Shown: piece by piece, positions 12,571 through 60,431 of the stretch
Numbering within the stretch: the first letter of the stretch is position 1
Layout: every line of letters begins with the position of its first letter
Origin: Algibacter sp. L1A34
Lineage (GTDB): Bacteria; Bacteroidota; Bacteroidia; Flavobacteriales; Flavobacteriaceae
Length of the DNA: 64,000 nt
Reading direction: 5' to 3'
NCBI RefSeq assembly: GCF_009796805.1
Contig: NZ_CP047029.1
Location: 2,716,001-2,780,000, forward strand
Notes under the pieces: generated by a model
Told to the model about the DNA's origin: nothing
Databases searched by the model: none
The model's input: only the letters and a program-made list of their open reading frames with translations
Made by a program: the position numbers and the translations under genes

Positions 12571-12906
12571 AGACATAGTTTAATCTCAGCCAAGCTTAGC
12601 AACCAATTTCAGAAGTATGTTATTAAAAACATAAGATTCATGCTGTAATAAAAATGCTAAAATACGAGGTTGAGGTTTAATAATAGTGCAACATCTGGTT
12701 TTGGCTAAAACAGGATAGGCAAAAGTTTTCTATATAACAATCAAAAGTGATGGTTTATAGTGAATGAACTATAATTTATACTCAAAAAGACTTTAAATAT
12801 TATTTTTGTTATAGATACTTAATCTTGGCTTTTTTCTTTTAATGATTTTTAGAAAAAAGAAAAGGTAGAGTGATTTTAATAATAAATTTAGGGAAATAGA
12901 GAATAC
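12571..12906. other. Intergenic gap before the GH95 gene
   Basis: No open frame worth calling. It holds a small perfect palindrome (12755-12774, listed separately) and, at about 12828-12863, a run of CTTTTTTCTTTT facing a complementary AAGAAAAAAG stretch that could form a weak hairpin. This is the likely promoter region of the GH95 unit. Confidence 0.4.
12755..12774. promoter_or_regulatory. Candidate operator palindrome upstream of GH95
   Basis: Perfect inverted repeat TTATAGT-(6 nt)-ACTATAA, about 130 bp before the GH95 start. The half-site spacing suits a dimeric transcription factor. There is no experimental or comparative support within the window, and AT-rich DNA yields such repeats by chance. 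Confidence 0.3.
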
Positions 12907-30814: not shown

Positions 30815-30890
30815 TATATTTTTAAATATTGTAACATCCAAATATGGGTTTTACATCGTACATTTAATAACAAACAAAAGGATATGCGCT

Positions 30891-31037
30891 ATGAAAATAT
30901 TACAAGAATTAAAAAATCGGCTACATAAATTTAAATTTGGACGACTACAAAATAACGAAAAGGCTCAACACATTAAACCTATAACTTTTATTACAAAATC
31001 ATTTTCAGATGACGAAGATTTGTTTATGTTTATATAA
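30891..31037 (+). CDS. Small protein of 48 residues, second of a tandem pair
   Basis: Paralogue of the preceding micro-ORF: MKILQELKNRLHKFKFGRLQ followed by a variable linker and the tail SFSDDEDLFMFI. The same ten bases precede the ATG. The linker differs by substitutions and a small length change that preserves frame. Function unknown; context (between the end of a CAZyme operon and a convergent gene) gives no clue. Confidence 0.5.
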   Translation: MKILQELKNRLHKFKFGRLQNNEKAQHIKPITFITKSFSDDEDLFMFI

Positions 31038-31605
31038 GCGAGAACTTTAAAAATCTTTATTTAGTAGCTGTAATTTTTAGGTAAGCCAATTTCTGTTCTC
31101 TTTTTTTTATTGAGGTGGCCTTTATTAGGGCTAAGCTCAAAAGAAATATTTTACTTTGAATTTTAAATAGAAAAATGTTAACGCTTTTTCTGTATAATAT
31201 TTTAGCGCTTAATTTTTTTTGTTGTGCGCATATTTTGCAATCTACTCTTTTTTCAAAAGCATCCATAAATCTTAAAAACCACAATAGAACCTGTTTTCTT
31301 TAATAGAAAATGAGGTTGATCTTTCTATGCTTTAAAATTAAATACTATTTTATATTTTAAGGATCAAAAGTAAGGGCTTTATTTAATCTAAATTACTTTG
31401 GGGTTTCAATAGAATCGTTATCAATAGGTTGAAATGCTTTGCTTGATAAAATAAGTGTGTATCCAAATCCTAACTAAGAACTCGAGTTCGATTAATTCTT
31501 CCTTATACTTCGTTCGGAATCACAAATTATACCATTAAAAAGCATAATTAATGGAGCTATTTTTTTTGCGCTTATAAAATTTGGTGTTAAATACTAAAAA
31601 GAGCT
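31038..31605. other. Gene-poor convergent interval
   Basis: Lies between the micro-ORFs (plus) and the 3' end of the minus-strand beta-helix gene. A 69-residue frame on the minus strand (ATG at 31266) exists but has no recognisable features and is not called. No clear terminator or repeat was found. Confidence 0.4.
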
Positions 31606-45222: not shown

Positions 45223-46713
45223 ATGAAAAAAATAATAAGTTTATTTTCAATAGTATGTCTTGCCACTATTGTATTAGTAAGTTGTAAAGATAAAACTGCA
45301 AAAAACACCGCAGAAGTAAAAGAAAAAAGACGTCCAAATTTTCTGTTCGTTTTAGTTGATGATCAATCACCGTTCGATTTACAAACCTACGATCCGAATT
45401 CAATTTTACAAACACCAACCATTAGTAAATTAGCAAGTGAAGGTGTTGTTGTAGACCAAGCTAGAAATATGGGATCTATGAATGGTGCTGTATGTACACC
45501 ATCTAGACACATGATTATGTCTGGACGTACCGTTTGGCATTTACCGCCAAGTGCAGAGTTTCAAAAACAAACAGATCCTGTTGCTATTGATGAGCAAACT
45601 ATTGGTGCTGTTTTTAATCGTGCAGGTTATAAAACCATGCGTACTTGTAAAAAAGGAAATTCTTATCCTGGTGCAAATAGACAATTTACAGAAGTTCACG
45701 ATGCTACTAAGCGTGGCGGAACAGAAGAAAGTGGTAGTGCATGGCATGCAAAACAAGTTTTAACTTATTTAGGTGACCGAGAAGTTAATAAAGATGAAGA
45801 TCCATTTTTTATCTATTTCGGATTTTCTCATCCTCATGATACTAGAAATGGAACTCCAGAATTGTTAGCAAAATATGGCGCAACAAATCATAAAGACCCA
45901 AATTCACTTCCGGCTGCAAATGATAAGCAACCAGAACTTCAAGATAATTATTTATTGGCACATCCATTTTTTCATGGACATCCAGGACTTAGGGATGAAG
46001 AACGTGTAAGCGGTGTTTGGAAAAATAGAGATGAGCAAACAATACGTAATGAACTAGGTAGAGAATATGCGTGTTCTGAAAATATAGATAATCAGTTAGA
46101 AAAAGTATTAAGCAAGCTTGAAGCTATGGGAGAGCTTGATAATACATATATTATTTATACTGCCGATCACGGGATGGCTATTGGTCGTCACGGTTTACAA
46201 GGGAAACAAAACCTTTACGAGCATACTTGGAAAGTACCATTTATAGTTAAAGGGCCTGGGATTCCTGCAGGGAAACGCGTTAAAGGGAATATGTATCTGT
46301 TAGATGTGTTACCAACATTATGTGATTTAGCAGATATTGAGGTGCCAGAAACTGTTGAAGGGAAAAGTGTTGTACCTGTATTAAAAGGAGAAAAAGAGGT
46401 GATTAGAGATGTGATGTATGGGGTTTATGCAGGAGGAACAAAACCTGGTATGCGCTCTGTGAAAAAAGGAGATTGGAAACTTATAAAGTATGATGTTATG
46501 GATGGCGCAGTGAGAGAAACTCAGCTTTTCAATTTAGCAGAAAACCCTAATGAGTATTTACCAGAACATCATAAAACGGGTGAAATGGAAACTGATTTAG
46601 CGGAGAACCCAAAATATGCTGAAAAATTAGCAGAAATGGAAGCTTTACTTCTAGAACAAATGATTGAAAACGATGATCCTTATCGTTTATGGAATCAGCC
46701 ACAGATTAATTAA
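45223..46713 (+). CDS. Family S1 sulfatase lipoprotein
   Basis: A 496-residue sulfatase with a lipoprotein signal ending LVSC (Cys21). The FGly site C-T-P-S-R is at 91-95, in MNGAVCTPSRHMIMSGRTVW. Metal motifs FVLVDDQSPFD and YTADHGMAIGRHG are intact. The wording around the active site differs from the two ATP-rich-region sulfatases upstream, so it belongs to another S1 subfamily. It starts 4 bp after the lyase. Its last 35 codons exist a second time, in decayed form, at 48878. Confidence 0.93.
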   Translation: MKKIISLFSIVCLATIVLVSCKDKTAKNTAEVKEKRRPNFLFVLVDDQSPFDLQTYDPNSILQTPTISKLASEGVVVDQARNMGSMNGAVCTPSRHMIMSGRTVWHLPPSAEFQKQTDPVAIDEQTIGAVFNRAGYKTMRTCKKGNSYPGANRQFTEVHDATKRGGTEESGSAWHAKQVLTYLGDREVNKDEDPFFIYFGFSHPHDTRNGTPELLAKYGATNHKDPNSLPAANDKQPELQDNYLLAHPFFHGHPGLRDEERVSGVWKNRDEQTIRNELGREYACSENIDNQLEKVLSKLEAMGELDNTYIIYTADHGMAIGRHGLQGKQNLYEHTWKVPFIVKGPGIPAGKRVKGNMYLLDVLPTLCDLADIEVPETVEGKSVVPVLKGEKEVIRDVMYGVYAGGTKPGMRSVKKGDWKLIKYDVMDGAVRETQLFNLAENPNEYLPEHHKTGEMETDLAENPKYAEKLAEMEALLLEQMIENDDPYRLWNQPQIN

Positions 46714-46737
46714 ATACTATAAAATAGTATCATTTTT

Positions 46738-46778
46738 AAAAGCCTTGTACTCCATTTAGAGTATGAGGCTTTTTTTTG
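46738..46778 (+). terminator. Intrinsic terminator after the sulfatase
   Basis: Stem AGCCTTGTACTC against GAGTATGAGGCT (two wobble pairs), 6-base loop, then eight T. The same hairpin is conserved at 49004. Confidence 0.85.
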
Positions 46779-46857
46779 AGGTTTTAAAAAATTAATAATT
46801 TTATTGTTAATTTTTTTGAAATAAAGTGATTTTTATTCAAAACGGATGATAATTTAC

Positions 46858-46891
46858 AGGTTAATGGTCATGGTTTACAGATTTAGTTTTT
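46858..46891 (+). promoter_or_regulatory. Shared upstream element, copy 1
   Basis: AGGTTAATGGTCATGGTTTACAG followed by ATTTAGTTTTTATGAAA, about 50 bp before the truncated beta-helix start. It is part of the duplicated segment and also resembles the elements at 56411 and 57884. Confidence 0.35.
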
Positions 46892-46931
46892 ATGAAAGTG
46901 TAATTTTACTACAAACTAATAAAACTAAATA

Positions 46932-47048
46932 ATGAGAAAAACACACACTTTAAAGAAAACATTTATAATGGCATTTATGTGTTTGTTTACTTCAGCTATT
47001 TGGGCAACCGATGAAACCGTGCCACTTAGTGGTAACATAAATAACTAG
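46932..47048 (+). pseudogene. Truncated 5' copy of the 49197 beta-helix gene
   Basis: Encodes only the signal peptide region and first residues: MRKTHTLKKTFIMAFMCLF, then WATDETVPLSGNIN and a stop at 47046. The intact gene at 49197 has MRKNYTLKKTFIMVFLCLF and ATDETVPLGGNIQ. The frame ends exactly where homology to the other copy stops. It might still be translated into a 38-residue leader-like peptide, but is best read as a duplication relic. Confidence 0.8.
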
Positions 47049-47053
47049 ATGCT

Positions 47054-48787
47054 ATGAAAATTGCTTTATTATCTTTTATTACTATTTTAATTACAGTTTG
47101 TGGTTTTGCGCAAAGAATTACTGTCGAAGATGCTGAATTTGATGACTTTTATTATAAGGCAGAAAACAAACCTGTTATAAAAGGGGAAGTTTTAAATCTT
47201 ACAGAAGAAGAAATTAAAAACACTAAACTAGAATACTCCTTAGTTACTCCATTTGCTCAAAATGAATCTCAAATTAAGAAACATGGTACTCTTAATGCTG
47301 ACGGTAGCTTTGAATTAGAAATTGATAATTCGTTTCCTTATCAGCAAATTTGGTTGCATGTTGGAAAACTGTTTTATGCAGGTGTTTATGCAAATTCCGA
47401 TTTGCTCATAACCCTCGATGCCGACAGTTTAAGAACAAAGCGCGCTTACATGAATGGTCCTGGTGTTACATATTCAGGAACGGATGGAGCAGTGAATACG
47501 GTACTAAATAATCATGTGCTTTTTAAACATAAAAAAAAGTTGTCCATAGGGACAGCGATTTCAACTGTTAGAAGAAATAGAAATCTTGATTACGATACTT
47601 ATCTATCAAAAACAGACAGTCTTTATGCTATACTTCACAAGATTGACGATCAATTTATAGAGAAGAATCCATCATCTTACGATTGGATGATCAAGAATGA
47701 AAGAATGTCTGATTATTATGGAATAATATGTCTTAAGCACAGGAGTTCTTCAACACCAAAAATGGACGAAAAGCTGTTCGATAAAATTAAAAATCATAAA
47801 CCGTATTTGGTATCCAATGACGCATCAAGCTATTATAATTACTTTTTTGACTATATAGAAAGACGAGCAGGAAAATATGATAGACTTGATCTATATGATT
47901 TTAAAAATAACTCAAAACTTACCGAATCGGCAAGAATGGATGTGTTGGAGTATTATCAATTAAAAAATGAAGAAAAGGCAAAGGCAAAAGCATTTCAGCC
48001 TTTTGATCGGACAAGAACCCGAGAGCTTACCAAAAGTTTGGAGGCAGCATTGAATGATACTATAGTGGCTTTTAGAACTCAAAAAACCATAAAATTTATT
48101 GATAGCCTATTCAACGACAGTAAAGCCGACTTGTTAAAACTCAAACTATCTAGTAAAGATATAAATGAGCAGCGAATAATTTTTGAAACTACATTAAAAA
48201 CAGTGAATACTGAATGGTGTAGAGAAAAATTAGAGGCAGGTTATGTTGAAAGCTTGGCTAAGTTGAAGACGATAGAGAATATTTTAAAAGAAGAAAAACC
48301 TTTTGAATCTGATAATAATATTGGAAAACCTATAGCGGAAATGCCATTTGGGGCAAAACTATATAAAGTAGATTCTGGTAATGGCCAAGCGCTTTTATCA
48401 AATATAAAATCGGCGTTTAAAGGGAAGGCGCTTATTTTAGATTTTTGGGCAACTTGGTGTGCACCTTGCTTATCAGATATGCCATATAGTAAAAAATTGC
48501 ATGATGAATTTAAAGATGATTCTGTTGAGTTTGTTTATTTATGCACGTCAAGTGGTTCTAGTATGAAGAAATGGCAAGCTAAAATTGCTGAATTTGAAAT
48601 TGGAGGCACACATATATTTGTGGAATCTAGTATTGAAAGTGATTTAATGGGGTTGTTTTCTTTTAGTGGTTTTCCAAGCTATGCCTTTATTGATGCTCAT
48701 GGAGATTATAAACCTGGAGCAATAAAAAGAATGTCGCATCTAGATAAAGAGGTCGTTAAAAAAATGATAAGTAAGAAAAAGAAGTAA
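47054..48787 (+). CDS. TlpA-like thioredoxin-domain protein (exported)
   Basis: A 577-residue protein with a signal peptide ending CGFAQ. The C-terminal ~150 residues are a TlpA/ResA-type thioredoxin fold with the redox site C469-A-P-C472 in FWATWCAPCLSDMPYSKKL. The long N-terminal part (DUF4369-like beta region, then a charged helical region) is typical of Bacteroidetes TlpA relatives, which act in envelope thiol-disulfide exchange. It begins 6 bp after the truncated beta-helix copy and is bounded by the two copies of a segmental duplication, so it appears to have been inserted into the carbohydrate locus. There is no direct link to polysaccharide breakdown. Confidence 0.88.
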   Translation: MKIALLSFITILITVCGFAQRITVEDAEFDDFYYKAENKPVIKGEVLNLTEEEIKNTKLEYSLVTPFAQNESQIKKHGTLNADGSFELEIDNSFPYQQIWLHVGKLFYAGVYANSDLLITLDADSLRTKRAYMNGPGVTYSGTDGAVNTVLNNHVLFKHKKKLSIGTAISTVRRNRNLDYDTYLSKTDSLYAILHKIDDQFIEKNPSSYDWMIKNERMSDYYGIICLKHRSSSTPKMDEKLFDKIKNHKPYLVSNDASSYYNYFFDYIERRAGKYDRLDLYDFKNNSKLTESARMDVLEYYQLKNEEKAKAKAFQPFDRTRTRELTKSLEAALNDTIVAFRTQKTIKFIDSLFNDSKADLLKLKLSSKDINEQRIIFETTLKTVNTEWCREKLEAGYVESLAKLKTIENILKEEKPFESDNNIGKPIAEMPFGAKLYKVDSGNGQALLSNIKSAFKGKALILDFWATWCAPCLSDMPYSKKLHDEFKDDSVEFVYLCTSSGSSMKKWQAKIAEFEIGGTHIFVESSIESDLMGLFSFSGFPSYAFIDAHGDYKPGAIKRMSHLDKEVVKKMISKKKK

Positions 48788-48877
48788 ACCCCCATGTTTT
48801 ACAATGTATTAAGAACTATTTAAGTGTTTTAAATCAAAGAATGTAATTCTTTTTTACTTAAAAAGATAAATAACTAT

Positions 48878-48982
48878 CCAAAATATGCTACAAAAATCGC
48901 AGAGATGGAAGCTTTATAATTAGAGTAAATGATCGCCAATGATGATCCGTATCGTTTATGGAATCAACTACAGATTAATTAA
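48878..48982 (+). pseudogene. Decayed 3' end of a sulfatase gene
   Basis: Codes for PKYATKIAEMEAL, a stop, LE, a stop, MIANDDPYRLWNQLQIN and the natural stop. The intact sulfatase ends PKYAEKLAEMEALLLEQ then MIENDDPYRLWNQPQIN. Two internal stop codons and no start show it is not functional. Confidence 0.9.
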
Positions 48983-49003
48983 TATAAAATATTATCTTTT
49001 TTT

Positions 49004-49044
49004 AAAGTCTTGTACTCCATTAAGAGTACGAGGCTTTTTTTTTG
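49004..49044 (+). terminator. Duplicated terminator before the beta-helix gene
   Basis: Stem AGTCTTGTACTC with GAGTACGAGGCT and a run of nine T; homologous to the hairpin at 46738. It now lies downstream of the thioredoxin gene and may terminate its transcript. Confidence 0.75.
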
Positions 49045-49122
49045 AGGTTTTAAAAAATTAATAGTTTTATTGTTAATTTTTTGAAAAAATGTGATTTTTA
49101 TTCAAAATGAATGATAATTTAA

Positions 49123-49157
49123 AGGGTAATCATCATAGTTTACAGATTTAGTTTTTA
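49123..49157 (+). promoter_or_regulatory. Shared upstream element, copy 2
   Basis: AGGGTAATCATCATAGTTTA then CAGATTTAGTTTTTATG, about 55 bp upstream of the 49197 start. Same arrangement as copies at 46858, 56411 and 57884. Confidence 0.4.
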
Positions 49158-49196
49158 TGAAATTGTAATATTACAATAACTAAAGAAACTAAAACA

Positions 49197-50960
49197 ATGA
49201 GAAAAAACTACACTTTAAAAAAAACATTCATAATGGTGTTTTTATGCCTTTTTACTTCTGCTATTTGGGCAACCGATGAAACCGTACCACTTGGTGGTAA
49301 CATTCAAACAGCTATAAATAATGTGGCTTCTAGTGGAGGAGGTATAGTAACTATAGCCACAGGGATTCACATTATAACCACCCCCATAAGAATGAAAAGT
49401 AATGTTACTCTGCAGGGCGAAGGGAATTGGGCTACGACTATTAAAACAAATACCGATATACAAGTTATTACAGCCGATGCTGAAGGGTTAGTTAATCTTG
49501 TTATTCAAAATATTAAAATTGAAGGCATTAATAGTGTGAGTGGTGGTGGTATACAAATAACATCACAAGGGGTCGATCACGATAATATTAAAATTTTGAA
49601 TGTGCATTGTACTAAAACAGGTTGGGGCGTACATATTAAAGGCTGTAAAAATTTACTAATAAAAGATTGTTTGTTTGATGAAAATGGAGCAGTTAGTAAA
49701 GAAGGGTTTGCTCATAATTTATATTTAAGACGTGTTTATGATGCTGAAGTAAGAGATAGTAAATTTTTAAATTCTATTTCTGCAAATGGTATTAATATCT
49801 CGTATAGTGAAAGAGTGAAAGTCTATAATTGCGAAATGTCTGGTAATTATTTTAGAGGGATTCGAGCAGCTGTTACCGATGGGTATTTAGTGCACGATTG
49901 TATTGTTAAAAATAATGGAGATCGAGGCATTTATGCCAATTCAGAGTCGGGTCAAACAGCAACGATTAATATTGATATTAGACGAAATTGTGTTTCAGGA
50001 AATACCCTAGAAGGTATCAAAGCCATTAGTGGTGTAACGGGAGTAACTCAGGATAATAATTCTTATGGAAATGGTACAGATTATAGCTTCCCAAGTTCGG
50101 TAACTCAATTTGGGAATGTGTCTGACGCTAGTAGTAATTGCACATACAGTACATCTCCAACGGTTGGTCTTTCTGCAATAACAGTAGATGGTACGGTTGC
50201 TTTAAATTGGGGTGTAAATAATATTGATGCCGTTCGCCAAGATGTGTTTAGGGATACCGACTCCGATCCTAGTGGTCGACAATTAATAGCCGGTAATGTT
50301 AACGGTGCGGACTATGTTGATAGCTCTATTGTTACAGGAACCGCCTATTACTATTGGGTAAAGGTATCTGATGGTAGTGTGAGTTATAATTCAAATGTAG
50401 CAAGTCCAGAACCAGAAGCTTTAGCTCCAGCCGTAATTCTCACAGCCGAACCAGGAAATGGATTTGTTACCTTAAACTGGGAGTTGCAAGGTATTGATTT
50501 AGGTGATAGTGGTATACAAGGTGTGTTTAGAAAAGTAACGTTGGACGACGGTGGGCGTAGTTTATTAAAAAACAGAATAAGTGGTTCAACCTATACCGAT
50601 AATTCAGCAGAAAATGGTGTAAGCTATTTGTATTACCTTAAAGTTACAGATAAGGATGGCGTAGATCATAATTCTGAGGCTATCGAAGCAACACCTAGCT
50701 TAAGTTTATCTGTAGATGGTTTTTCAGAAAAGCAAAGTAAAATAAAGATTTACCCTAACCCAACTTCAAACTATTTTACAATTTCGAATGCTTTAGATGC
50801 TAAAGTTGAGGTTTATAATTTAATAGGAAAAAAAGTGCTTTCAGAAATTGTTTTTTCAGATAAACAAACCATAGATATTTCTTCTTTACCTACTCAAGTT
50901 TATATCGTTAAAATTAATAATGAAAGTCAATCTTCAAGTTTAAAATTAGTGAAAAAGTAA
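49197..50960 (+). CDS. T9SS-exported beta-helix protein with fibronectin-like repeats
   Basis: A 587-residue protein with a signal peptide ending AIWA. Residues 28-310 form a pectin-lyase-type beta-helix (VPLGGNIQTAINNVASSGGG, later HNLYLRRVYDAEVRDSKF). Two FN3-like domains follow at about 320-405 and 410-500 (VALNWGVNNIDAVRQDVFRD and VTLNWELQGIDLGDSGIQG are parallel). Residues about 510-587 are a type A T9SS sorting domain (IKIYPNPTSNYFTIS, VEVYNLIGKKVLSE, YIVKI). It is thus exported across the outer membrane and probably surface-anchored. It is the first gene of a three-gene run, and a truncated copy of its 5' end lies at 46932. Confidence 0.8.
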   Translation: MRKNYTLKKTFIMVFLCLFTSAIWATDETVPLGGNIQTAINNVASSGGGIVTIATGIHIITTPIRMKSNVTLQGEGNWATTIKTNTDIQVITADAEGLVNLVIQNIKIEGINSVSGGGIQITSQGVDHDNIKILNVHCTKTGWGVHIKGCKNLLIKDCLFDENGAVSKEGFAHNLYLRRVYDAEVRDSKFLNSISANGINISYSERVKVYNCEMSGNYFRGIRAAVTDGYLVHDCIVKNNGDRGIYANSESGQTATINIDIRRNCVSGNTLEGIKAISGVTGVTQDNNSYGNGTDYSFPSSVTQFGNVSDASSNCTYSTSPTVGLSAITVDGTVALNWGVNNIDAVRQDVFRDTDSDPSGRQLIAGNVNGADYVDSSIVTGTAYYYWVKVSDGSVSYNSNVASPEPEALAPAVILTAEPGNGFVTLNWELQGIDLGDSGIQGVFRKVTLDDGGRSLLKNRISGSTYTDNSAENGVSYLYYLKVTDKDGVDHNSEAIEATPSLSLSVDGFSEKQSKIKIYPNPTSNYFTISNALDAKVEVYNLIGKKVLSEIVFSDKQTIDISSLPTQVYIVKINNESQSSSLKLVKK

Positions 50961-51000
50961 TCGCTAATTAAAAAACCAAATAACTAAAATAACTAAACTA

Positions 51001-53916
51001 ATGAAAAAAAAATACACTTTAAAAAAGCCAATATTAATAACGCTTTTACTATGTTTTTTTGGATTTGCTATGCAAGCACAATTTGTACATCCTGGAATTA
51101 CACACAAAAAATCTGATTTAGACCGTATGAAGTATATGGTTGAAGCTCAAATAGATCCTTGGTATGCATCGTATCAAGATATGGTAGCTGATTCTAAATC
51201 TAGTTACGATTATGTTGCGCAAGGTGATGAAAGCTTTACTGAACTTGGCAGAGATTCAGGTGTTAATGAAGGTGCTTGGAATAGTGATATTAGAGCAGCT
51301 TATTACAATGCTGTTAGATGGTACATTACTGGAGATTCTAGGCATGCCGAAAAAGCGATTGAAATATTTAAGGCTTGGTCTAATTTAACATCGGTTACTA
51401 GTGGAGGTACAGATGCTTTAAGTGGTGGTATTGGTTATATAATGATTGAAGCTGCAGAAATTATTAAAAGCACCTATCCTGGTTGGGCAGCTGCCGATTT
51501 ACAAGCTTTTCAAGATATGTTGGTATATCCAGGGTATTCTTCTACGGTAGAACCAACAGGAAATGTTACTTTTTATTGGATGGCTTTTCAAGGTGATCCT
51601 GTACGTCATGGAAATCAAGGCTTATCGGGTTGGCGTACGGTTATGGCTATGGGTATCTTTTTAGATAATGAAAAAATGTACGACCGTGCCTATCGATATA
51701 TAACGGGAGAGTTGGATCTTCATTTAAGTGATATAGCCTATCCAGCAGGTCCTAACACCAGTACATCTATAAAAACCTCAAATGATTATTATGAGGATTG
51801 GAACATAAGTAGAGGGTATACAATTCCTAATTATGGTTATAATGAGGTTATGACTAATTATATTTGGGAAAATGGACAATGTCAAGAAAGCTCAAGAGAC
51901 CAACAACATACAGCTTTCGGAATAGGTTTATTGACTTCTATGGCAGAAATGGCATGGAATCAAGGTGATGATTTATATAGCCATGAAAACGATAGGTTGC
52001 TCCTGGGGCTAGAATATAATATGCGATATAATGTTTCTGCAATTCAAGATTATCCAGACCAACTAACACCATGGGAGCCCACAGTAGCCTCAGATGAGTT
52101 TATTCAACAATTTGAAAGAACAGGACGGTGGTATTCAAAAACCATAAGTCCAGTTGGTATTGGTGAATTTGCAGGAGTTAGAGAAGTGTTCGAAATGCCC
52201 GTAGCACATTATATAGGTAGAGGTTTTAAAACAGAAGCAGAAGCAAAATGGACATTGCGTGCACGCGATAAAGCTATTGATTTAAATGGTTACGAAAAGG
52301 CAGGATGGACTAACGATGCAATTGGTTGGGGAGGACTTACAGCACGCAGGCCAGTGTATTGTTATGGCGATCCTATTTCTGGTTTCGATGGAAATGGGTT
52401 ACCTGTTTACGATATGAATTTTGCTGAAACAACCATAGAAGCTGAACATTTTGATTATGATCCTTTACAGAATGGAGAAGGTCGTGTGTATCATGATGTA
52501 AGTGTATTAAATACGGGTAATGCTTATAGAACTTTTGATGGTGTAGATATTGATACGAATACAAGTGGTGGATACTATATTTCTTCAATAGAATCTGGCG
52601 AATGGCTTACATATACTATTTCGGTTCCAGAAAAAGCTATTTATAAAATAGATGTTAATTATGCAGCCTCTCAAGCCGGAGCAACCATGAAATTTAGTTT
52701 TGGAGGCGAAGAGAAAACAGGTGATTTAGTTGTGCCTTTTGGATCACCAAACTCAACGAGTGCTACCGATTGGAAAACGGTAACCATTGCCGAAGATATT
52801 ATTTTGGAGCAAGGTGTTCAAAGTTTTAAAATACAATTTAACGGAACCTCGAATGCTTTTAATTTAGATAATTTTTCAATAGCTAAAACGGGTATTGCAC
52901 CAAGCGATCAAAACATTCAGTTTTTTACAATTTCAGATAAAGTTGTAGGAGCAGCAGATTTCGATCCAGAAGCTATTGCAAGCTCAGGCTTAGCTGTAAC
53001 TTATAGCAGTTCAAACACGGCAGTGGCTACCATTGTAGATGGTAAAGTACATATTGTTGGTGTTGGTACAGCAACTATAACCGCTAACCAAGCAGGCGAT
53101 GCTACAAATAATGCAGCGCCTAGTGTATCTCAAGATGTGCGTGTGGTTGCTGCTGTTGAAGGGACTATGACTTTAAACGTATTAGCAGATACATACGTAA
53201 GAGATGGCGGTTATGCTAATAATAATTATGGTTCCGATGATAATTTAATAACCGTTGCAACTGGGCGTTATGGCTATTTAAAGTTCGATTTAAGCTCGGT
53301 TCCTGGTACAATAATATCTGCCAAACTAAGAATATATCAAAGAACAACTCATAAGTTTTTACGCTGTATTTATGATGTTGCCGATGATAGTTGGGAGGAA
53401 GGTGTAATTACTTGGAATAACAAGCCATCGTTTGAAAATGAACGCGCACGTATTACAACTAGTTCAGCTTGGAATGAATGGGATATTTCTTCATATACAG
53501 CTCAAGAATACAATAATGATAAATTAATTACAGTAGTTGTTAAAGACCCAATAGATCCTGCGGCTAGTGCTAAAGGTATTGATTTCCGCTCTAAAGATTT
53601 TGACTCAGGTAGTGTTGCGCCAGAATTGGTTATTGAATATGCTAGTACTACCCTTGGTGTTGATGATGAAGATATAGTTATAGGGATGTATCCAAACCCT
53701 GTATCAAATACACTTAATCTTTCATTAGGCTCAGCGAACTTAAATTTAAATGAAACTAGTATTAAGGTTTTTGCTTTAAGTGGTCAGAAAGTTATGGAAA
53801 CCAAAGTAGATTCAAAAAATATTAAACTAGATGTATCTAAATTAAATAGCGGTATTTACATGCTTATGATTTCCGACACATCGAAAAATATTACAAGGAA
53901 AATAGTGAAGTTATAA
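51001..53916 (+). CDS. T9SS-exported alginate-lyase-fold protein with CBM6, Big-like and DNRLRE (CBM96-like) domains
   Basis: A 971-residue multidomain enzyme. Signal peptide 1-24. Residues about 27-460 have the alpha-toroid layout of alginate lyase-type proteins (FVHPGITHKKSDLDRMKYMV, NEGAWNSDIRAAYYNAVRWYITGD). CBM6 at about 473-630 (TTIEAEHFDYDPL ... FNLDNFSIAKT). A bacterial Ig-like part at 635-715. A DNRLRE domain at about 722-881 (VLADTYVRDGGYANNNYGSD, SWEEGVITWNNKP), the fold of CBM96. The T9SS sorting domain is at about 893-971 (MYPNPVSNTLNLS ... GIYMLMISDTSKN). Likely a surface polysaccharide lyase with two binding modules. A decayed copy of its last codons is at 57686. Confidence 0.82.
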   Translation: MKKKYTLKKPILITLLLCFFGFAMQAQFVHPGITHKKSDLDRMKYMVEAQIDPWYASYQDMVADSKSSYDYVAQGDESFTELGRDSGVNEGAWNSDIRAAYYNAVRWYITGDSRHAEKAIEIFKAWSNLTSVTSGGTDALSGGIGYIMIEAAEIIKSTYPGWAAADLQAFQDMLVYPGYSSTVEPTGNVTFYWMAFQGDPVRHGNQGLSGWRTVMAMGIFLDNEKMYDRAYRYITGELDLHLSDIAYPAGPNTSTSIKTSNDYYEDWNISRGYTIPNYGYNEVMTNYIWENGQCQESSRDQQHTAFGIGLLTSMAEMAWNQGDDLYSHENDRLLLGLEYNMRYNVSAIQDYPDQLTPWEPTVASDEFIQQFERTGRWYSKTISPVGIGEFAGVREVFEMPVAHYIGRGFKTEAEAKWTLRARDKAIDLNGYEKAGWTNDAIGWGGLTARRPVYCYGDPISGFDGNGLPVYDMNFAETTIEAEHFDYDPLQNGEGRVYHDVSVLNTGNAYRTFDGVDIDTNTSGGYYISSIESGEWLTYTISVPEKAIYKIDVNYAASQAGATMKFSFGGEEKTGDLVVPFGSPNSTSATDWKTVTIAEDIILEQGVQSFKIQFNGTSNAFNLDNFSIAKTGIAPSDQNIQFFTISDKVVGAADFDPEAIASSGLAVTYSSSNTAVATIVDGKVHIVGVGTATITANQAGDATNNAAPSVSQDVRVVAAVEGTMTLNVLADTYVRDGGYANNNYGSDDNLITVATGRYGYLKFDLSSVPGTIISAKLRIYQRTTHKFLRCIYDVADDSWEEGVITWNNKPSFENERARITTSSAWNEWDISSYTAQEYNNDKLITVVVKDPIDPAASAKGIDFRSKDFDSGSVAPELVIEYASTTLGVDDEDIVIGMYPNPVSNTLNLSLGSANLNLNETSIKVFALSGQKVMETKVDSKNIKLDVSKLNSGIYMLMISDTSKNITRKIVKL

Positions 53917-53937: not shown

Positions 53938-56337
53938 TTGAAAAAAAAACTACAAGTAACTAAAATAGTAGCTATATGCATGGCTTTTATAAGTGTGCAT
54001 ATAGCAACGTATGGACAAACTGTAAATTCAATGGCAGAACTAATGCCTTATCTGGATGATGATGGTGTTACTGTTGTAATGACACCAGGAACCTATTCCA
54101 TTACAGCAGAAGATATTGATAATGGTTTATACGGAACCGTAAACCCTTTATTTGCAGATACGACTATATTACTGGATTTTATAGGTTCAAATAGTACATA
54201 CGATTTTACAGGAGTAAAATTAAATATTGATACGGTAGTTTTTACAAAATTTGGAAGCAACCACGTAAATGAAATACAGGTAAGAGGATCTAATGTACTT
54301 ATTAAAAATCTTACTATGGAAGATATTGGGTGGACTAAACCTAATAAAACAGCTTTAGGAATAGGGGTAGACGGTATTGGAAATACCTTAGAAGGTATTC
54401 ATCTTACAGTAAGAGGGTCTTTCCCGTACGGTTATGGCGATATGTTTGGAAAAGGATCTGGGTCGGTAATTGGACATAATAAACATGCTGCCATTTTAGT
54501 CCGTGGAGAGAATAACACAGTTAAAGATTGTACCATTATGCATTATGCGTATGGTCACGGTATTTTTGTGCAAGGCGGTATTAATACCACAGTTGAAGGT
54601 TGTTACTTGGAAGGAGAACTACGAACTACCGATGATGTTTTGGCAGAAGCAGGAACAGGGTCTCCAGCCGATTTAGTGGATTTTGTTACCGTTTATAACG
54701 CCGATAGTGCTAATGGTATTCCTGGTTATAAAGTGCCAGCAGGTTGGATGTTTAGTAAACAAGAGGATGGTATTAGAGCATACAATACGGGACCCCATTG
54801 GTTAACTGGAGAAACAACTAATACCTCTAATATGAGTGTTATTGATTGTACCGTTAAAAGATTTAGATCTGGTGTTGTAATAGGTTTTGCAAACAATACT
54901 AAATATGTGGAAAACTGTACAACCATTGAGTGCGAAACACAATACAGCATGGGTAGAGATGCCACAGTAATAAATTCAAGAGGTGATACTAAATACGGTC
55001 CTTTATATGTAGATGAGTATGACAATAGTAATTCTCAAAATAATACAATGAATTTTACGGTTCTTAATAATAATGGTGCTTATGGCAATGATATGTTAGC
55101 ATTTATTGGAGGTAATGATCATGATATTACTTTTAGAAATACTGTGCCTTTTGATGATACCCAAATGGATATTGTGCTATCGGGCGTTCGTAGAGGACTA
55201 AGATTTAGTTCGGGCAGTGAAGCAAGTTTTTCTTCATCTGGTGTGGAAATTCATAACAATACAAACAACCCAATAATTAGCGGAAATCAAAGTTCTAATA
55301 ATATTATTGAATCTTGCGGGATTGTAAAAGATACGGGAACAAATAACACCATTAATCCAATAACTTGTGATGCAGGCCAAACAACAACTAATGTGTCCGT
55401 AACTTGGGTGTCAATTGCTCCATATAGTTTAGAACTTAATGTTGAAGAAACACAACAATTAACAACCGTTGTATATCCTATAAATGCAACCAATACGAAT
55501 GTCTCTTATGTTATTGACGATCCTTCTATAGCATCAATAGATGCTAACGGAACAGTTACAGCTCTTAAATTAGGATCTACATTTGTTAATGTTATTTCAG
55601 AAGATGGAAATCTAATTGATACCAGTTATATAAACGTTAGTTATTCTACTGCAAACAATTTAGCGTTAGCTACAAATGGAGGTGTCGCAACACAATCAAC
55701 TACTGCTTATGATGGGGTGGCAAGCAGAGCTAATGACGGAGATATAAATGGTAATTATGGTGATGAATCTGTATCACATACTGCCCATGGGCTCGATGGA
55801 TCTAACACACTTAAATGGTGGCAGGTAGATTTAGGTGTCAACAAAACAATATGGGATATTATAATATATAATAGAACAGGTGGTACTTATGGAGACGCCC
55901 TAAATAATTTTACTGTTGAAGTAATAAATGATAATAACGTTGTGGTATTTACGAAAATTTTCATATCACCTCCAAGTCCAACACTTATTATAAACGCAGG
56001 AAATGTTGTGGGGAAATTTGTTAAAATTTCAAAAACCTCTGATGATGGACTTCAGCTTGCTGAAGTTGAAGTGTTCGGAACAAGCACATTAAGTGTTGAA
56101 GATAATATAGTAAGTACTATTAAAATATATCCAAATCCAGTAAAAGATTCATTCAGTATTGCTGACAGTGCAGATGCTGTTATGGAAATTTACAGCATGC
56201 TTGGTAAGTTATTAATGTCTCAAACCATTAAGAGTAATCAACACGTAGTAGATGTAAGTGCTTTAACAAGTGGGTTTTATATTGTTAAAATAAAAAAAGA
56301 TAACATGGTTTTTACTAAAAAAGTTATAAAAGAATAG
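53938..56337 (+). CDS. T9SS-exported PYGYG-family beta-helix with Ig-like and fucolectin-like domains
   Basis: The only plausible start is a TTG at 53938 (KKKLQVTK and a signal peptide follow); no in-frame ATG lies upstream of the signal peptide core. Residues 25-470 are the PYGYG beta-helix: VNSMAELMPYLDDDGVTVVM, GSFPYGYGDMFGKGSG, NKHAAILVRGE, AYGHGIFVQGG, ELRTTDDVLAEAG, EDGIRAYNTG. A bacterial Ig-like domain is at about 487-570, and an F5/8-type or fucolectin-like lectin domain at about 573-717 (NLALATNGGVATQSTTAYDG, WWQVDLGVNKTIWDI). A T9SS sorting domain is at about 725-799. 799 residues. The lectin domain suggests binding of fucose or a similar sugar. It follows the lyase gene by 21 bp. 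Confidence 0.8.
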   Translation: MKKKLQVTKIVAICMAFISVHIATYGQTVNSMAELMPYLDDDGVTVVMTPGTYSITAEDIDNGLYGTVNPLFADTTILLDFIGSNSTYDFTGVKLNIDTVVFTKFGSNHVNEIQVRGSNVLIKNLTMEDIGWTKPNKTALGIGVDGIGNTLEGIHLTVRGSFPYGYGDMFGKGSGSVIGHNKHAAILVRGENNTVKDCTIMHYAYGHGIFVQGGINTTVEGCYLEGELRTTDDVLAEAGTGSPADLVDFVTVYNADSANGIPGYKVPAGWMFSKQEDGIRAYNTGPHWLTGETTNTSNMSVIDCTVKRFRSGVVIGFANNTKYVENCTTIECETQYSMGRDATVINSRGDTKYGPLYVDEYDNSNSQNNTMNFTVLNNNGAYGNDMLAFIGGNDHDITFRNTVPFDDTQMDIVLSGVRRGLRFSSGSEASFSSSGVEIHNNTNNPIISGNQSSNNIIESCGIVKDTGTNNTINPITCDAGQTTTNVSVTWVSIAPYSLELNVEETQQLTTVVYPINATNTNVSYVIDDPSIASIDANGTVTALKLGSTFVNVISEDGNLIDTSYINVSYSTANNLALATNGGVATQSTTAYDGVASRANDGDINGNYGDESVSHTAHGLDGSNTLKWWQVDLGVNKTIWDIIIYNRTGGTYGDALNNFTVEVINDNNVVVFTKIFISPPSPTLIINAGNVVGKFVKISKTSDDGLQLAEVEVFGTSTLSVEDNIVSTIKIYPNPVKDSFSIADSADAVMEIYSMLGKLLMSQTIKSNQHVVDVSALTSGFYIVKIKKDNMVFTKKVIKE

Positions 56338-56410
56338 TGTTTTAAAAGTAAGAAAAGAACTTCTTTTAACAATAAATACGCTTGTTTTGATTATAAAGGA
56401 GCGTTATTTT

Positions 56411-56446
56411 ATAGGGTTAAGGTTATAGTTTATAGATTTTTTATGT
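56411..56446 (+). promoter_or_regulatory. Shared upstream element, copy 3
   Basis: TAGGGTTAAGGTTATAGTTT then ATAGATTTTTTATG, about 65 bp upstream of the LRR gene. It is not in the duplicated segment of the 46-49 kb copies, so the similarity is independent evidence for a shared site. Confidence 0.4.
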
Positions 56447-56500
56447 TTTTTTTAACATATTGGCAGTACTAAATTTAACTAATCTAAAATTTTATTTATT

Positions 56501-57556
56501 ATGAAAAAAACATTACTATTATTTACAGTTTTTTTAACAATCACATTGGTAAATGCTCAAGGCTCAGCATCAGGAGCTGACGGTGAAAGTTTTACAGTAG
56601 GAAACTATACATTTACAATTACGAGTGCAGCTAATGATGAAGCAGAAGTTTCAGGGAGTACAGATACTGCATTAAATGTACCTGGCATTGCTGTAGATGC
56701 ATTTGATGCTGTTACTTACACTATAACCGCTGTTGGAAGTGGAGCATTTAAACAGAATACGGCTATTACTTCGGTGATACTACCTGCTTCAGTAAAAGAG
56801 CTGAAACTAGATGCGTTTATAAGTGCAACTAGTCTTACCTCAATAAACTTAGAAAATGTGCAGATATTTAATAAAAATTGTTTAAGACTTACGGGGTTAA
56901 TTACTTTGGGAGACTTGAGTAGTGCCGTTGTTCTTGGAGATAATGGTCTTGGTCGTGCGAATATAATGGATATAGAGTTAGCCTTGCCTGCCTTAGAGAC
57001 TCTTGATCGTTATGCATTTGTTAAAGCTAATGGTGCTCAGAATAATCTTCAAGTAATTAGATTTGGCGCTTCATTGCAAACTATAGGTGACAATCCTATT
57101 TTTTATGGTCTTGGAGCTTTAGTTTCACTTGAATTTGCGTCAGCAACACCAGTAACAATTACCGATTCAGCAAATTTTGTAGCTGGTGGAATGTCAATTG
57201 CGAATGTAACTTTATATGTACCATCTGGTGCTACTCAAGATTATATTGATGCAGGCTGGGTAGGGTTTAAAAATATTGTAGAGGGCAGTGCTCCAACATT
57301 AAGCACAAACAACCTAGAACAAGAATTAGGTTTAAGTTTATACCCAAACCCAACAAATGGTGTTGTTAATGTTAAAAATAGCAGCAATACAAATGTAGCT
57401 ATTACGGTTTATGATTTAAACGGTAGAGCATTGTTAAATAAGAAAGTAACAAATACAACGTCAGAAATAAATATAACTAATTTAGCATCTGGTGTCTATT
57501 TATTTAAAGTAAAATCTGAAAATGGAGAGTTTGTAAAGCGTATCTTAAAGCAATAA
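56501..57556 (+). CDS. T9SS-exported BspA-type leucine-rich repeat protein
   Basis: A 351-residue protein. Signal peptide ends VNAQ. Residues 20-265 carry BspA-like (LRR_5) repeats such as AFKQNTAITSVILPASVKELKLDAF and ALETLDRYAFVKA. The T9SS sorting domain occupies about 275-351 (LSLYPNPTNGVVNVK, VYDLNGRALL, VKRILKQ). LRR_5 proteins mediate adhesion or protein-protein contacts and are not catalytic. It has its own upstream element and its own terminator, so it is a separate unit. The C-terminal half of the 57966 protein is its paralogue. Confidence 0.85.
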   Translation: MKKTLLLFTVFLTITLVNAQGSASGADGESFTVGNYTFTITSAANDEAEVSGSTDTALNVPGIAVDAFDAVTYTITAVGSGAFKQNTAITSVILPASVKELKLDAFISATSLTSINLENVQIFNKNCLRLTGLITLGDLSSAVVLGDNGLGRANIMDIELALPALETLDRYAFVKANGAQNNLQVIRFGASLQTIGDNPIFYGLGALVSLEFASATPVTITDSANFVAGGMSIANVTLYVPSGATQDYIDAGWVGFKNIVEGSAPTLSTNNLEQELGLSLYPNPTNGVVNVKNSSNTNVAITVYDLNGRALLNKKVTNTTSEINITNLASGVYLFKVKSENGEFVKRILKQ

Positions 57557-57575
57557 GTTTATAATTATTTAAAAT

Positions 57576-57615
57576 AAAAAAGCTGTTTCAATTTAGTAGT
57601 TGAAATAGCTTTTTG
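57576..57615 (+). terminator. Intrinsic terminator after the LRR gene
   Basis: Stem AAAAGCTGTTTCAA with TTGAAATAGCTTTT (one wobble), a short AT loop, and T-rich flanks, about 20 bp after the stop. Confidence 0.8.
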
Positions 57616-57685
57616 TTTTAACTTATTTTTCAGAATCAAGAAGCGTTTTTAACAAATAATGTTATAAGTATGTATTGAAATCGAG

Positions 57686-57751
57686 TATCACAATGTGTTT
57701 ATTCTTTCCGATACATCGAAAAATATTATTAAAAAAATAGTGAAGTTGTAA
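57686..57751 (+). pseudogene. Decayed T9SS domain tail, copy of the 51001 gene end
   Basis: A frame without start codes YHNVFILSDTSKNIIKKIVKL and a stop. The 51001 protein ends YMLMISDTSKNITRKIVKL. The following 0.2 kb leads into a PYGYG beta-helix gene, just as the original tail leads into 53938. It marks an ancestral duplication of tail plus next gene. Confidence 0.8.
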
Positions 57752-57883
57752 TTCGTATTAACTAACCAATTTATTCACTATTTAAAGTGAGAAGTTCTAT
57801 CAAATTTATTTGGTGGAATTTTTTTTTATGTAAGATTTTTTTACTGTTTTAAGAGGTTTAAACTTCTATAAAGCAATAATTTA

Positions 57884-57920
57884 AAGTGATGCAGTGATAA
57901 TTTATAGATTTTGTTCTTAC
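57884..57920 (+). promoter_or_regulatory. Shared upstream element, copy 4
   Basis: AAGTGATGCAGTGATAATTT then ATAGATTTTGTTCTTAC, about 55-60 bp before the 57966 start. Followed by TAAATAGTAATATTACTA, close to the GTAATATTAC found after copy 2. Confidence 0.38.
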
Positions 57921-57965
57921 TAAATAGTAATATTACTACTAACTAAATAACCATAAACTAAACAT

Positions 57966-60431
57966 ATGAAAACAACATTACCATTATTTAAAACGAATAA
58001 AATAGGCTTCGTTTTTTTATTATCCATTTTTACTGTTTTTGGAGTAAGCGGACAAACAGAAATTACCAGCGTTGCAGAGTTGGCTGCAGTTGCAGCAAAT
58101 TCTAATCAGAATATTGTTATGAAATCTGGCATTTATCAAATGGAAGATTACTTAACGCCAACTGTAATAAGTAATCATCAGCCAGATTCAGGAAATCGAT
58201 CGGCCATGATCACCTTCAGCGGAAGCGATAATGTTTTTGATTTTACAGGAGTCACCATTGAAGTAAATACGGCTTTATTGAATGATTATGGTACAAAAGT
58301 AATTGAACTTTATGTTACTGGTGATAATAATATAATTAAAGGGTTAACACTTACGGATATTGGAACATCGGCAACAGCAAAGGGCGGGCAATCCTTTACT
58401 ATTTCGGGAGATAATGTTACTGTGCAAGATGTTACTATAAATGTGAGTGGTTCATCGCCTTATGGTTATGGTGATTTATTAGGGAAAGGAAGTCCTAATT
58501 TAGTAACTATGAGAAAACATAGTGGTATGCTAATTGAAGGAGCAAACGATAAAATACTAGGGTGTAAAATTTATTCGAAAGCATTTGGGCATTTATTTTT
58601 CATTCAAGGCGGTAGAGATGTTTTGTTTCAAGATTGTTATGCAGAAGCGGTTACTAGAACAACTGATGATATGTTAGCGGAAACATCTGGGCTTGCTTTC
58701 GATCGTGATTTTGAGGCTGTTTATGCTAATTATAGTGGGGATAAAGTGATTACTCCTGGTTATACAAAATCTTTGAGTGAAGTAGGGTACCGTTCATATG
58801 GTACAGGTGGATTAGAAGGGCATACCACAGGAGCTATAACTTTGATAAACTGTGTAGCTAAAGATACGCGTTCTGGTTTTGCTTTTACGCGTTATGGAGG
58901 CGATGTGCTTATGCAAAACTGCCAAGCTACAGGTTGCGAAGCGGGATATCAAGTAGAAGAAGTTACAATTGAAAACAGTAGAGGAGATGCTGTTAATGGG
59001 CCGTTATTGTACCTTAATGGCGGGGCGTCTACCGTAGAGTTAGAGTTAATACCTAATGTGTCAACAACAACTTTACATGCTATTGCAACCATTGCAGGAG
59101 ATAATCATAAGGTAACACTTACAAATTATAATGATGAAGTAAGACCTCAAGAACACTCTATTTTAGTGGGAACGTCTAGACCTTCTGGAGCCAACCCGTT
59201 TTCACCATTAGGAACAACTTCTACATCGGGAATTATACTAAATAATTGTACCGATATGCCTATTGAAATTAATTCATATACAAGTTCAAGTACTATTAAT
59301 ACGACCGGAACGGTTACAGATAATGGTTCAGGGAATACAATTAATACGGTTACCGATTGCGATAATATTGTAGTTGTAGTGCCAGAGAAAAATGCTGTTG
59401 GAGATACCTTTACATTTCAAGATATAGATTATAAAGTAACTAGTATTGATCCTTATCAAGCAGAAGTTACAGGAAGCTCTTTAATTAATGTGGTAGTACC
59501 AAGTTTTGCAACTAACGAAGATACTGAAACTGCATTTGCGGTTATCAGAATTGGAGATAATGCTTTTAATGGTAGTAGTACAACAACTATTGAATTACCA
59601 AGCTCAGTAACATCAATAGGTTATCAGACGTTTAGAGGCGGAAGTTTAACAACGGTAACGTTTACCACAACTAATGGTATTACTACTATTGATGGTAGAG
59701 GCTTTTTTGTTTGTACCACACTTCTTGATCTAAACAATATTATGAGTAGCGCAGAATCATTAGGGGATGGGGCGTTTAATGGCACAACAAGTGTAACATC
59801 TTTAATCACGCCGAGTACATTGTCAACTTTGGGAACAAGTGTTTTTAGAGGTATGGCGAATTTAAAAACGGTAGATTTATCTGCTTCAACGTTGTTAACC
59901 GAAATACCATCGCAAACCTTTAGGGATGCTAGCGGGATAACTTCTGTAATTATTCCTATTAATGTGACTACAATTGGAGCTAGTGCATTTTTAAACCTTA
60001 GTAATTTAAAAACGGTACAGGTTTTAAATCCAGTGCCTGCAACTATTACAACTTCTGAGTTTTCTGGCGTAAATCTAGCTTTTGCAACTTTAATAGTGCC
60101 AACTGAAGCTGCAAAGTTAGCCTACCAAGCTGCAGATGTATGGAAGAATTTCGGTACGATTATAGCAGGAACATTAAGCACAAACAGCTTAGAACAAAAA
60201 TTAGATTTCAATATTTTTCCAAATCCTACAAACGGATTGATATCAATAAAAAGTAAACCACTTAACAATGTTCGTGTTAGTATTTACGATTTTAACGGAA
60301 GAGTTTTATTAACAAATAATATTAGTGGAACAGCATCAGAAATTAATATTTCTGAGTTTTCTTCTGGAATTTATTTACTTAAAGTCAGCCTTGAAAACAG
60401 CGAATTTGTTAAGCGAATAGTAAAGCAATAG
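57966..60431 (+). CDS. T9SS-exported chimera of a PYGYG beta-helix and a BspA-type LRR domain
   Basis: An 821-residue protein. Signal peptide ends VSGQ. Residues 25-470 are a PYGYG-family beta-helix (VTSVAELAAVAANSNQ-like opening, GSSPYGYGDLLGKGS, RKHSGMLIEG, AFGHLFFIQGG, AVTRTTDDMLAETSG, EVGYRSYGTGG). Residues about 476-715 are LRR_5 repeats opening NAVGDTFTFQDIDYKVTSID, parallel to GADGESFTVGNYTFTITSA of the 56501 protein. The last 80 residues (FNIFPNPTNGLISIK, IYDFNGRVLL, FVKRIVKQ) match the 56501 sorting domain better than that of 53938. I read it as a fusion of the two neighbouring types. In the signature the EDGIRAY Ile is Tyr. Confidence 0.82.
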   Translation: MKTTLPLFKTNKIGFVFLLSIFTVFGVSGQTEITSVAELAAVAANSNQNIVMKSGIYQMEDYLTPTVISNHQPDSGNRSAMITFSGSDNVFDFTGVTIEVNTALLNDYGTKVIELYVTGDNNIIKGLTLTDIGTSATAKGGQSFTISGDNVTVQDVTINVSGSSPYGYGDLLGKGSPNLVTMRKHSGMLIEGANDKILGCKIYSKAFGHLFFIQGGRDVLFQDCYAEAVTRTTDDMLAETSGLAFDRDFEAVYANYSGDKVITPGYTKSLSEVGYRSYGTGGLEGHTTGAITLINCVAKDTRSGFAFTRYGGDVLMQNCQATGCEAGYQVEEVTIENSRGDAVNGPLLYLNGGASTVELELIPNVSTTTLHAIATIAGDNHKVTLTNYNDEVRPQEHSILVGTSRPSGANPFSPLGTTSTSGIILNNCTDMPIEINSYTSSSTINTTGTVTDNGSGNTINTVTDCDNIVVVVPEKNAVGDTFTFQDIDYKVTSIDPYQAEVTGSSLINVVVPSFATNEDTETAFAVIRIGDNAFNGSSTTTIELPSSVTSIGYQTFRGGSLTTVTFTTTNGITTIDGRGFFVCTTLLDLNNIMSSAESLGDGAFNGTTSVTSLITPSTLSTLGTSVFRGMANLKTVDLSASTLLTEIPSQTFRDASGITSVIIPINVTTIGASAFLNLSNLKTVQVLNPVPATITTSEFSGVNLAFATLIVPTEAAKLAYQAADVWKNFGTIIAGTLSTNSLEQKLDFNIFPNPTNGLISIKSKPLNNVRVSIYDFNGRVLLTNNISGTASEINISEFSSGIYLLKVSLENSEFVKRIVKQ

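Follow-up and report, generated by a model that had tools for sequence, protein, structure and literature searches.

Within the window (the whole 64-kb stretch of DNA analysed here; all window features below lie on its forward strand), an intact gene for a TlpA-like thiol-disulfide oxidoreductase (47054..48787; 577 aa, WCAPC motif) is carried by a 1.84-kb piece that lies precisely between two direct copies of the host's junction DNA. The first-pass annotation had proposed that the 0.43 kb at 46609-47038 recurs at 48878-49303, and this direct repeat is genuine: the copies agree at 364 of 425 aligned positions overall, and BLAST aligns them at 84.65% over 443 columns (E 1.9e-119). Both copies are uninterrupted, copy A (46609..47038) ending in GGTAACAT and copy B (48878..49303) starting at CCAAAATATG. 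Since the insert lies exactly at the joint, one event is favoured over a duplication followed by a later, unrelated insertion, and we hold with roughly even confidence that the arrival of TlpA and the duplication of its flanks happened together.

Copy A comprises the tail of an intact sulfatase gene (PF00884; 45223..46713, the last 105 bases of which fall within the copy), a terminator, an operator/promoter region and the start of a beta-helix gene (35 codons). As had been noticed before, this left copy ends in a truncated beta-helix gene: the leader frame opening at 46932 (46932..47048) stops after 38 codons at a TAG (47046-47048) that ends 5 nt ahead of the TlpA start. Copy B begins with the counterpart, a sulfatase-tail relic (48878..48982) which does hold the two stops described earlier, both in frame, and runs into the intact beta-helix gene with its T9SS tail (49197..50960). 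Our recount of the sulfatase tail agrees with the 18 differences in 105 bases first given (87/105 identical); the intergenic part shows 185/213 identical bases (87%) with 6 gap columns, and the beta-helix start 92/107.

The two copies have diverged unevenly. Polarised protein-changing or stop changes number five in copy B and two in copy A over the sulfatase tail (30 codons), and six in copy A against one in copy B, with one unplaced, over the beta-helix leader (35 codons). Because most of these substitutions are in whichever end of a copy is truncated, the copies probably decayed in place, and a foreign homologous fragment, considered as the source of the divergence, may be unneeded. Synonymous differences are in excess (8.5 of 18 and 8 of 15; under wholly neutral change, P = 0.0025 and 0.0065), as one would in part predict, one copy of each segment being a working gene. 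The excess still leaves room for the now-dead ends to have been coding for some time, as they would have been under a larger tandem duplication. The copies had also been called old, and we agree: their intergenic identity (87%) comes close to the 84% seen when junction DNA of this genome is compared with its orthologue in a sister species, and divergence of nearly that size supports their age. A precise reversal is now probably unlikely, since the copies are about 86% alike and share no exact stretch longer than 28 bp.

The insert itself holds no second reading frame of at least 60 aa besides TlpA, and no integrase or transposase; no terminal inverted repeats were seen by eye at its ends, and its intergenic parts match no other gene of the window. 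The encoded protein matches Redoxin, AhpC-TSA and thioredoxin models (PF08534, 2e-11), and scores below the curated cut-off for each of the 11 NCBIfam families listed; WCAPC is present in all five sequences aligned. It resembles TlpA/ResA-like oxidoreductases in its thioredoxin-like C-terminal domain with WCAPC and its large N-terminal part, yet it differs in belonging to a sparse long subfamily, the full-length relatives found being 30-40% identical over the alignment. No close relative was present among the genomes sampled from the larger family (397) and class (395) sets or in plasmids, where the 8 listed of 23 records cover 19-25% of TlpA; phages gave no match. A scan of genome contigs likewise returned no close relative among its 80 best loci, own or very near records being possibly left out there. 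Neither a donor nor a circle or other intermediate for the piece was found in the genomes and plasmids searched, and a copy from the genome's own repertoire was rejected, the best other match listed being 26% identical (residues 365-552). A nine-row tree favours neither one family genome (G208) nor Sphingobacteriaceae as the source. Under simulated random change (200 trials), TlpA stayed free of stops in 1% of trials at 5% change and in none at 10% or 17%.

We sought the same junction elsewhere. Sulfatase homologues (E<=1e-140) occur in 23 other genomes among the 397 of the family, and we examined about 1.5 kb on each side of these loci, two of which ended early at contig ends. The comparison proposed in the first-pass annotation agrees with its reading: TlpA lies next to the sulfatase in none of the 23 (0/23), and three genomes (G324, G350 and G176) have a single, TlpA-free sulfatase-terminator-lyase junction of similar layout. 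The gene that follows in these three is a lyase and not a beta-helix gene, and in genus members two other genes lie between at this junction. Among the loci compared we saw neither a precisely empty site, with sulfatase, this same junction and beta-helix gene but no TlpA, nor an allele with the tandem copy but without the insert.

The duplicated segment carries regulatory features in both copies. Terminator hairpins are predicted at 46738..46773 in copy A (fold of 46714-46790: -22.9 kcal/mol, z -5.4) and at 49004..49037 in copy B (fold of 48983-49060: -22.2 kcal/mol, z -5.8); Rfam at gathering scores gave no structured-RNA match in the window. An operator-like direct repeat, i.e. 11 bp, a 10-bp spacer and 11 bp with a 21-bp period, lies at 46849..46880 in copy A, now 5' of TlpA, with one mismatch to the pattern, and at 49114..49145 in copy B, 5' of the intact beta-helix gene, with none. 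Further such repeats precede genes 57966 (57876..57907), 56501 (56404..56435) and 12907 (12750..12781). The pattern, which was derived in part from window sites, is found 42 times when 3 mismatches are allowed, compared with 12 times when it is reversed; of its 11 sites with at most 2 mismatches, 5 are in the window. Among ten other genomes scanned, six have a match in their loci and four have none; the match that precedes the beta-helix gene of G326 is itself on the opposite strand. Like the operators of hybrid two-component (HTCS-type) regulators in Bacteroides polysaccharide loci, this is a direct repeat of about 21-bp period 5' of polysaccharide-degradation genes (PMC3878776); HTCS motifs in that source include direct repeats of 16+5, 12+9 and 14+6 bp (PMC3878776), whereas here the layout is 11+10+11 bp, in another genome and with a putative regulator. 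Of the 10 Y_Y_Y (HTCS-type) matches that exceed the cut-off genome-wide, none is in the window. As the repeat includes the operator, TlpA stands behind its own operator copy, and the left copy may be read as a ready transcription unit for TlpA with a putative operator.

We propose that the 1.84-kb piece with its rare TlpA-like gene entered the sulfatase/beta-helix junction of a polysaccharide-degradation cluster, and that the same event would have doubled 0.43 kb of junction DNA, so placing a copy exactly on each flank of the insert. This could have come about by single-crossover integration of a circle bearing the TlpA piece and a fragment of the junction, or by the filling-in of long staggered ends at a break that had captured the piece. 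Either way both neighbours would be kept whole while the newcomer received its own copy of their control region. The duplicated terminator, operator, promoter and leader would make TlpA a separate unit under the same, presumably polysaccharide-responsive, regulator, and translation of TlpA may be coupled to that of the short leader frame. Selection would then have kept TlpA open while the sulfatase relic gathered stops.

Such an outcome has known parallels. In Campbell-type insertion-duplication a single crossover leaves a foreign piece between direct repeats of host DNA, and some genomic islands supply the gene that they enter with a new 3' end, the displaced tail lying at the other side. The TlpA site resembles the former in that a piece lies between repeats of host DNA with both neighbours whole, but its insert lacks plasmid or phage functions and its copies have diverged to about 86%; it resembles the latter in having an intact target gene on one side and a displaced gene tail on the other, but there is no integrase and the repeat spans the terminator, the operator and the start of the next gene. 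It is not a new kind of element, but a tidy, not unprecedented mode of cluster growth. Its interest is for gene-cluster evolution, here in a bacterium able to degrade complex sugars. Taken alone, the site is a gene gain with promoter duplication that is well preserved and can roughly be dated. If junction-copying insertions recur, polysaccharide-degradation clusters could gain single genes, correctly regulated, without mobile-element genes, and a gene-tail relic 5' of a duplicated operator would be a searchable signature in other genomes.

Among the alternatives, the best is a larger tandem duplication of sulfatase and beta-helix genes, the middle of which was later lost with the TlpA piece in its place. 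The exact repeat edges would follow by construction, the synonymous excess between copies fits, and tandem or repeated lyase paralogues exist in such clusters (G004, G324, G326 and G350). We nevertheless consider it rather unlikely: the insert has neither another frame of at least 60 aa nor intergenic matches to other window genes, no sulfatase-plus-beta-helix tandem pair was found in the relatives' loci listed, and the protein-changing substitutions are concentrated on the truncated ends.

Of the two routes first suggested for the site, a tandem duplication later invaded by TlpA or the integration of a circle, both are possible, and the exact position of the insert disfavours the former. This two-event history, a local 0.43-kb tandem duplication with a later invasion at its joint, would draw on the 11-bp direct repeat ATAAATAACTA reported at both inner boundaries, which we located, exact, at 47037..47047 and 48866..48876 and at no other place in the 64-kb window. 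To estimate chance we drew random 25-mer pairs from 40 stretches of the same genome (200,000 pairs): an exact 11-mer was common to 53 pairs at any GC, 121 at GC up to 30% and 205 at GC up to 24%, which puts the chance of an 11-mer at both edges at about 0.0003 to 0.001. In this history the 11-mer would be a short target-site duplication; it overlaps the long repeat, however, by two bases at the start of its left occurrence, so that AAATAACTA alone is wholly outside. An unrelated insertion would have had to strike the joint exactly, and the joint would have had to hold AAATAACTA, part of neither repeat end, which makes two events quite improbable. We also considered, and rejected, the view that the 11-mer is a 5'-leader motif widespread in this genome, its AAATAACTA core showing no genome-wide enrichment (184 against 337 for the reversed control). 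Separately, AATAACTA also precedes genes 49197 and 51001.

A mobile element (integrase-type island or transposon) that replaced the sulfatase 3' end and displaced the old one would explain the intact gene on one side, the displaced tail on the other and the direct repeats, yet it is very improbable given the solitary TlpA frame, the lack of integrase, transposase and visible inverted repeats, the partial plasmid matches and absent phage ones, and a repeat that extends 325 bases past the sulfatase end into the next gene.

Two neighbouring junctions appear, from their sequence, to have an architecture similar to that of the TlpA site. Downstream of the alginate-lyase-family gene (51001..53916), a second insert of two genes (53938..57556), coding for a 799-aa protein with Big_2, F5/8-type and T9SS domains and a 351-aa protein, is absent from this junction in two sister species (G001 and G002). 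It is followed by a relic of the lyase tail (57653..57751), which derives from the 51001 gene and runs directly into the DNA that, in sister species, forms the junction of the lyase with the gene after it. In a further sister species (G004), 0.48-kb tail-terminator-operator repeats, 80% alike over 487 columns and 2.4 kb apart, stand on both sides of a lyase body, whereas G001 and G002 have one copy; these repeats could also reflect gene conversion between tandem lyases, because the bodies are 61% alike. One may speculate that junction modules (gene tail, terminator, operator and next-gene leader) act as portable homology cassettes, with genes slotted in and out by recombination between module copies, and that the TlpA site, the second insert and the sister-species lyase junction are three snapshots of this process, an idea that we regard as tentative and on balance unlikely. 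Were it true, a newcomer would need no transposase, break no neighbour and gain its own regulated promoter.

Our survey took in the window and 0.8 Mb of the genome in 40 pieces of 20 kb, several of them placed near regulator genes, operator-like sites or the window and not at regular intervals, and found no second clear full case of insertion with flank duplication. Three partial cases were observed: a fragment between genes with 74% similarity to the 5' portion of a nearby gene (L196), two neighbours with a common signal peptide and upstream region (76%; L199), and upstream regions, 66% alike, that flank one gene (L224).

A thioredoxin-like gene between two diverged copies of one segment, as the first-pass annotation had described it, is real. 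Copies A (46609-47038) and B (48878-49303), direct copies carrying a sulfatase tail, a terminator, an operator/promoter region and the first codons of a beta-helix gene, are identical at 364 of 425 aligned positions, and the 11-bp repeat is present at both edges of the insert, where a chance origin at both is unlikely. Identity is 87/105 in the sulfatase tail (the 18 differences counted before), 185/213 in the intergenic part, with 6 gap columns, and 92/107 in the beta-helix start, and the terminator hairpin is strong in both copies (z -5.4 in A, -5.8 in B). The cluster around them, within 2716001-2780000 of a genome that is a single 4.64-Mb contig, contains sulfatase, lyase and beta-helix genes (domain scan of seven proteins) and other genes that we take to encode glycosidases and an esterase; T9SS sorting domains, a mark of Bacteroidota, were detected among the window proteins. 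The reading we prefer is one event at a cluster junction that combined insertion with duplication, for which several molecular routes are possible. Such an event would have left both neighbours intact and given the newcomer a regulated promoter.

The polarity of the differences between the copies was assessed with 20 sulfatase tails (30 codons, covering 17 of the 18 differences) and four beta-helix starts. Protein-altering or stop changes in the sulfatase tail number five in B and two in A, and in the leader, the segment from the beta-helix start, six in A and one in B, with one unplaced. Of these raw counts, three reflect path effects at leucine codons (one in the A tail; one in A and one in B at leader codon 18), and their removal leaves 5 to 1 and 5 to 0. 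All polarised changes together are distributed as 11 in B and 6 in A for the tail, and 10 in A and 3 in B for the leader, with 2 unplaced. This is the pattern that in-place decay of the truncated copy would predict, in small numbers. Over the copy pair as a whole, synonymous change exceeds the expectation for wholly neutral sequence, and this excess is explained in part by each segment retaining one working copy. The duplication had been called old, and indeed the intergenic parts of A and B are 87% alike, compared with 84% between the window and G001, a genome of the same genus, at an orthologous junction (57693-57970), which would put the event at about the time of the divergence from the sister species or slightly after it.

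Among 397 sampled family genomes, own included, 24 (again including our own) carry a sulfatase homologue at E<=1e-140, three of which, 51-64% identical, may be paralogues. The first-pass annotation had proposed a comparison with syntenic loci in relatives for alleles lacking the insert. A TlpA gene (E<=1e-8) adjoins the sulfatase in only one of the 24 loci, our own, with flanks of about 1.5 kb covered (contig ends shortened two of the loci). The window's intergenic DNA aligns poorly with all the relatives' loci compared, and the exact pre-insertion allele was not found among them. Longer stretches were read for 18 of the 23 other sulfatase genomes and for the congeneric G001 (also among the 23), G002 and G004; the sole tlpA match was a thioredoxin-domain match (31%) at a different locus in G003, the fifth genome of the genus, which has no sulfatase match at E<=1e-140. 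The gene order is sulfatase, esterase, 326-aa gene and a beta-helix-lyase fusion protein in G001, G002 and G004; sulfatase, 326-aa gene, beta-helix gene and lyase, all separate, in G326; and sulfatase, terminator (by eye) and lyase in G324, G350 and G176. Beta-helix and lyase (window 49197-53916) are thus separate genes in the window and G326 and one fused frame in the three congeners, and the start of the lyase gene (50979-51048) is similar to that of the beta-helix gene.

The only reading frame of at least 60 aa in the 1.84-kb insert encodes the TlpA-like protein (577 aa), whose Redoxin/thioredoxin domain spans residues 453-550; a PDB sequence search matched that region only. Apart from the gene itself, a near full-length relative occurs in 1 of the 397 family genomes (G208, 30%), and at E<=1e-60 the TlpA profile matches 3 of 394 other genomes of the class, none of them from the family. 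Among named hits, two Mucilaginibacter proteins and one from Pedobacter rank highest (34-36%). This patchy distribution fits acquisition from outside, the tree leaving the origin undecided. The gene has probably been under selection, since simulated random change of 5-17% nearly always introduces stops.

The repeat carries an operator-like element (ATAATTTANAG, 10 bases, ATRGTTTACAG, about 29 bases, a TAATATTAC-like box, then the start), found in the window at 12750, 46849, 49114, 56404 and 57876. Genome-wide, the pattern, derived partly from these sites (12750 was not used), occurs at 42 places with up to three mismatches, against 12 for its reverse, and at 11 with up to two, five of them in the window. 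Loci of 6 of the 10 other genomes scanned hold a match (G001, G002, G004, G326, G350 and G176), and the gene it precedes is the beta-helix gene, the lyase or the gene-57966 homologue; those of G324, G385, G125 and G018 hold none. G002 has an additional match before a 275-aa gene, and the match ahead of the G326 beta-helix gene lies on the opposite strand. The junction after the sulfatase matches in G350 and G176, and loosely, by eye, in G324. An operator-like direct repeat of 21-bp period is common to a number of the cluster's transcription units and to related junctions in other genomes. The period agrees with what PMC3878776 gives for motifs of hybrid two-component regulators (HTCS) of Bacteroides; the window yielded no HTCS gene of the Y_Y_Y type. 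With its own putative operator copy upstream, and a leader stop ending 5 nt before its start, TlpA would be regulated through that copy and coupled to the leader.

A second insertion lies at window 53938-57751, with two genes (53938-57556) between the lyase tail and a relic of that tail at 57653-57751 (72% over 105 columns). The relic runs on into junction DNA and the start of the next gene, which have orthologous counterparts in G001, G002 and G004 (84, 82 and 81%); that next gene comes immediately after the lyase in G001 and G002. The duplication here is confined to the tail of the upstream gene plus a few bases. At the same junction, G004 (stretches L062 and L189) has a second lyase between 0.48-kb repeats (487 columns, 80% identical) that reach from the lyase tail across intergenic DNA and operator to a few codons into the next gene; the last 80 residues of this second lyase are 85% alike to the tail of the window lyase, and its body is 47% alike. 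G001 and G002 have one copy each of this segment, with different operator versions. At sites differing between the G004 copies, G001 mostly follows the downstream copy through the operator, and G002 agrees with the upstream copy within the operator and with the downstream one nearby on both sides; as they follow different copies, different crossovers in gain or loss at such a junction are suggested. Another process that would fit the G004 structure is gene conversion between tandem lyases. The architecture of the TlpA locus and these echoes at the next junction are of interest to the specialist, not astonishing.

In 40 sampled stretches of the own genome plus the window (864 kb) there was no further clear full case, and three partial ones. 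In L199 (6748-8386), two neighbouring genes have the signal peptide and the region upstream in common (76%), with the repeat stopping short of the rest, and in L224 (10287-13101) a 717-aa gene lies between upstream regions that are 66% alike over 178 columns. Elsewhere in the window (30674-31040), a 1.3-kb intergenic stretch holds tandem small reading frames of 46 and 48 codons, with a 147-nt repeat at 80%. Two other stretches of this genome, L213 (2456001-2476000) and L229 (4312001-4332000), contain dense arrays of intergenic repeats of about 130 bp, many 72-96% alike, interspersed with short and transposase-like genes (by eye).
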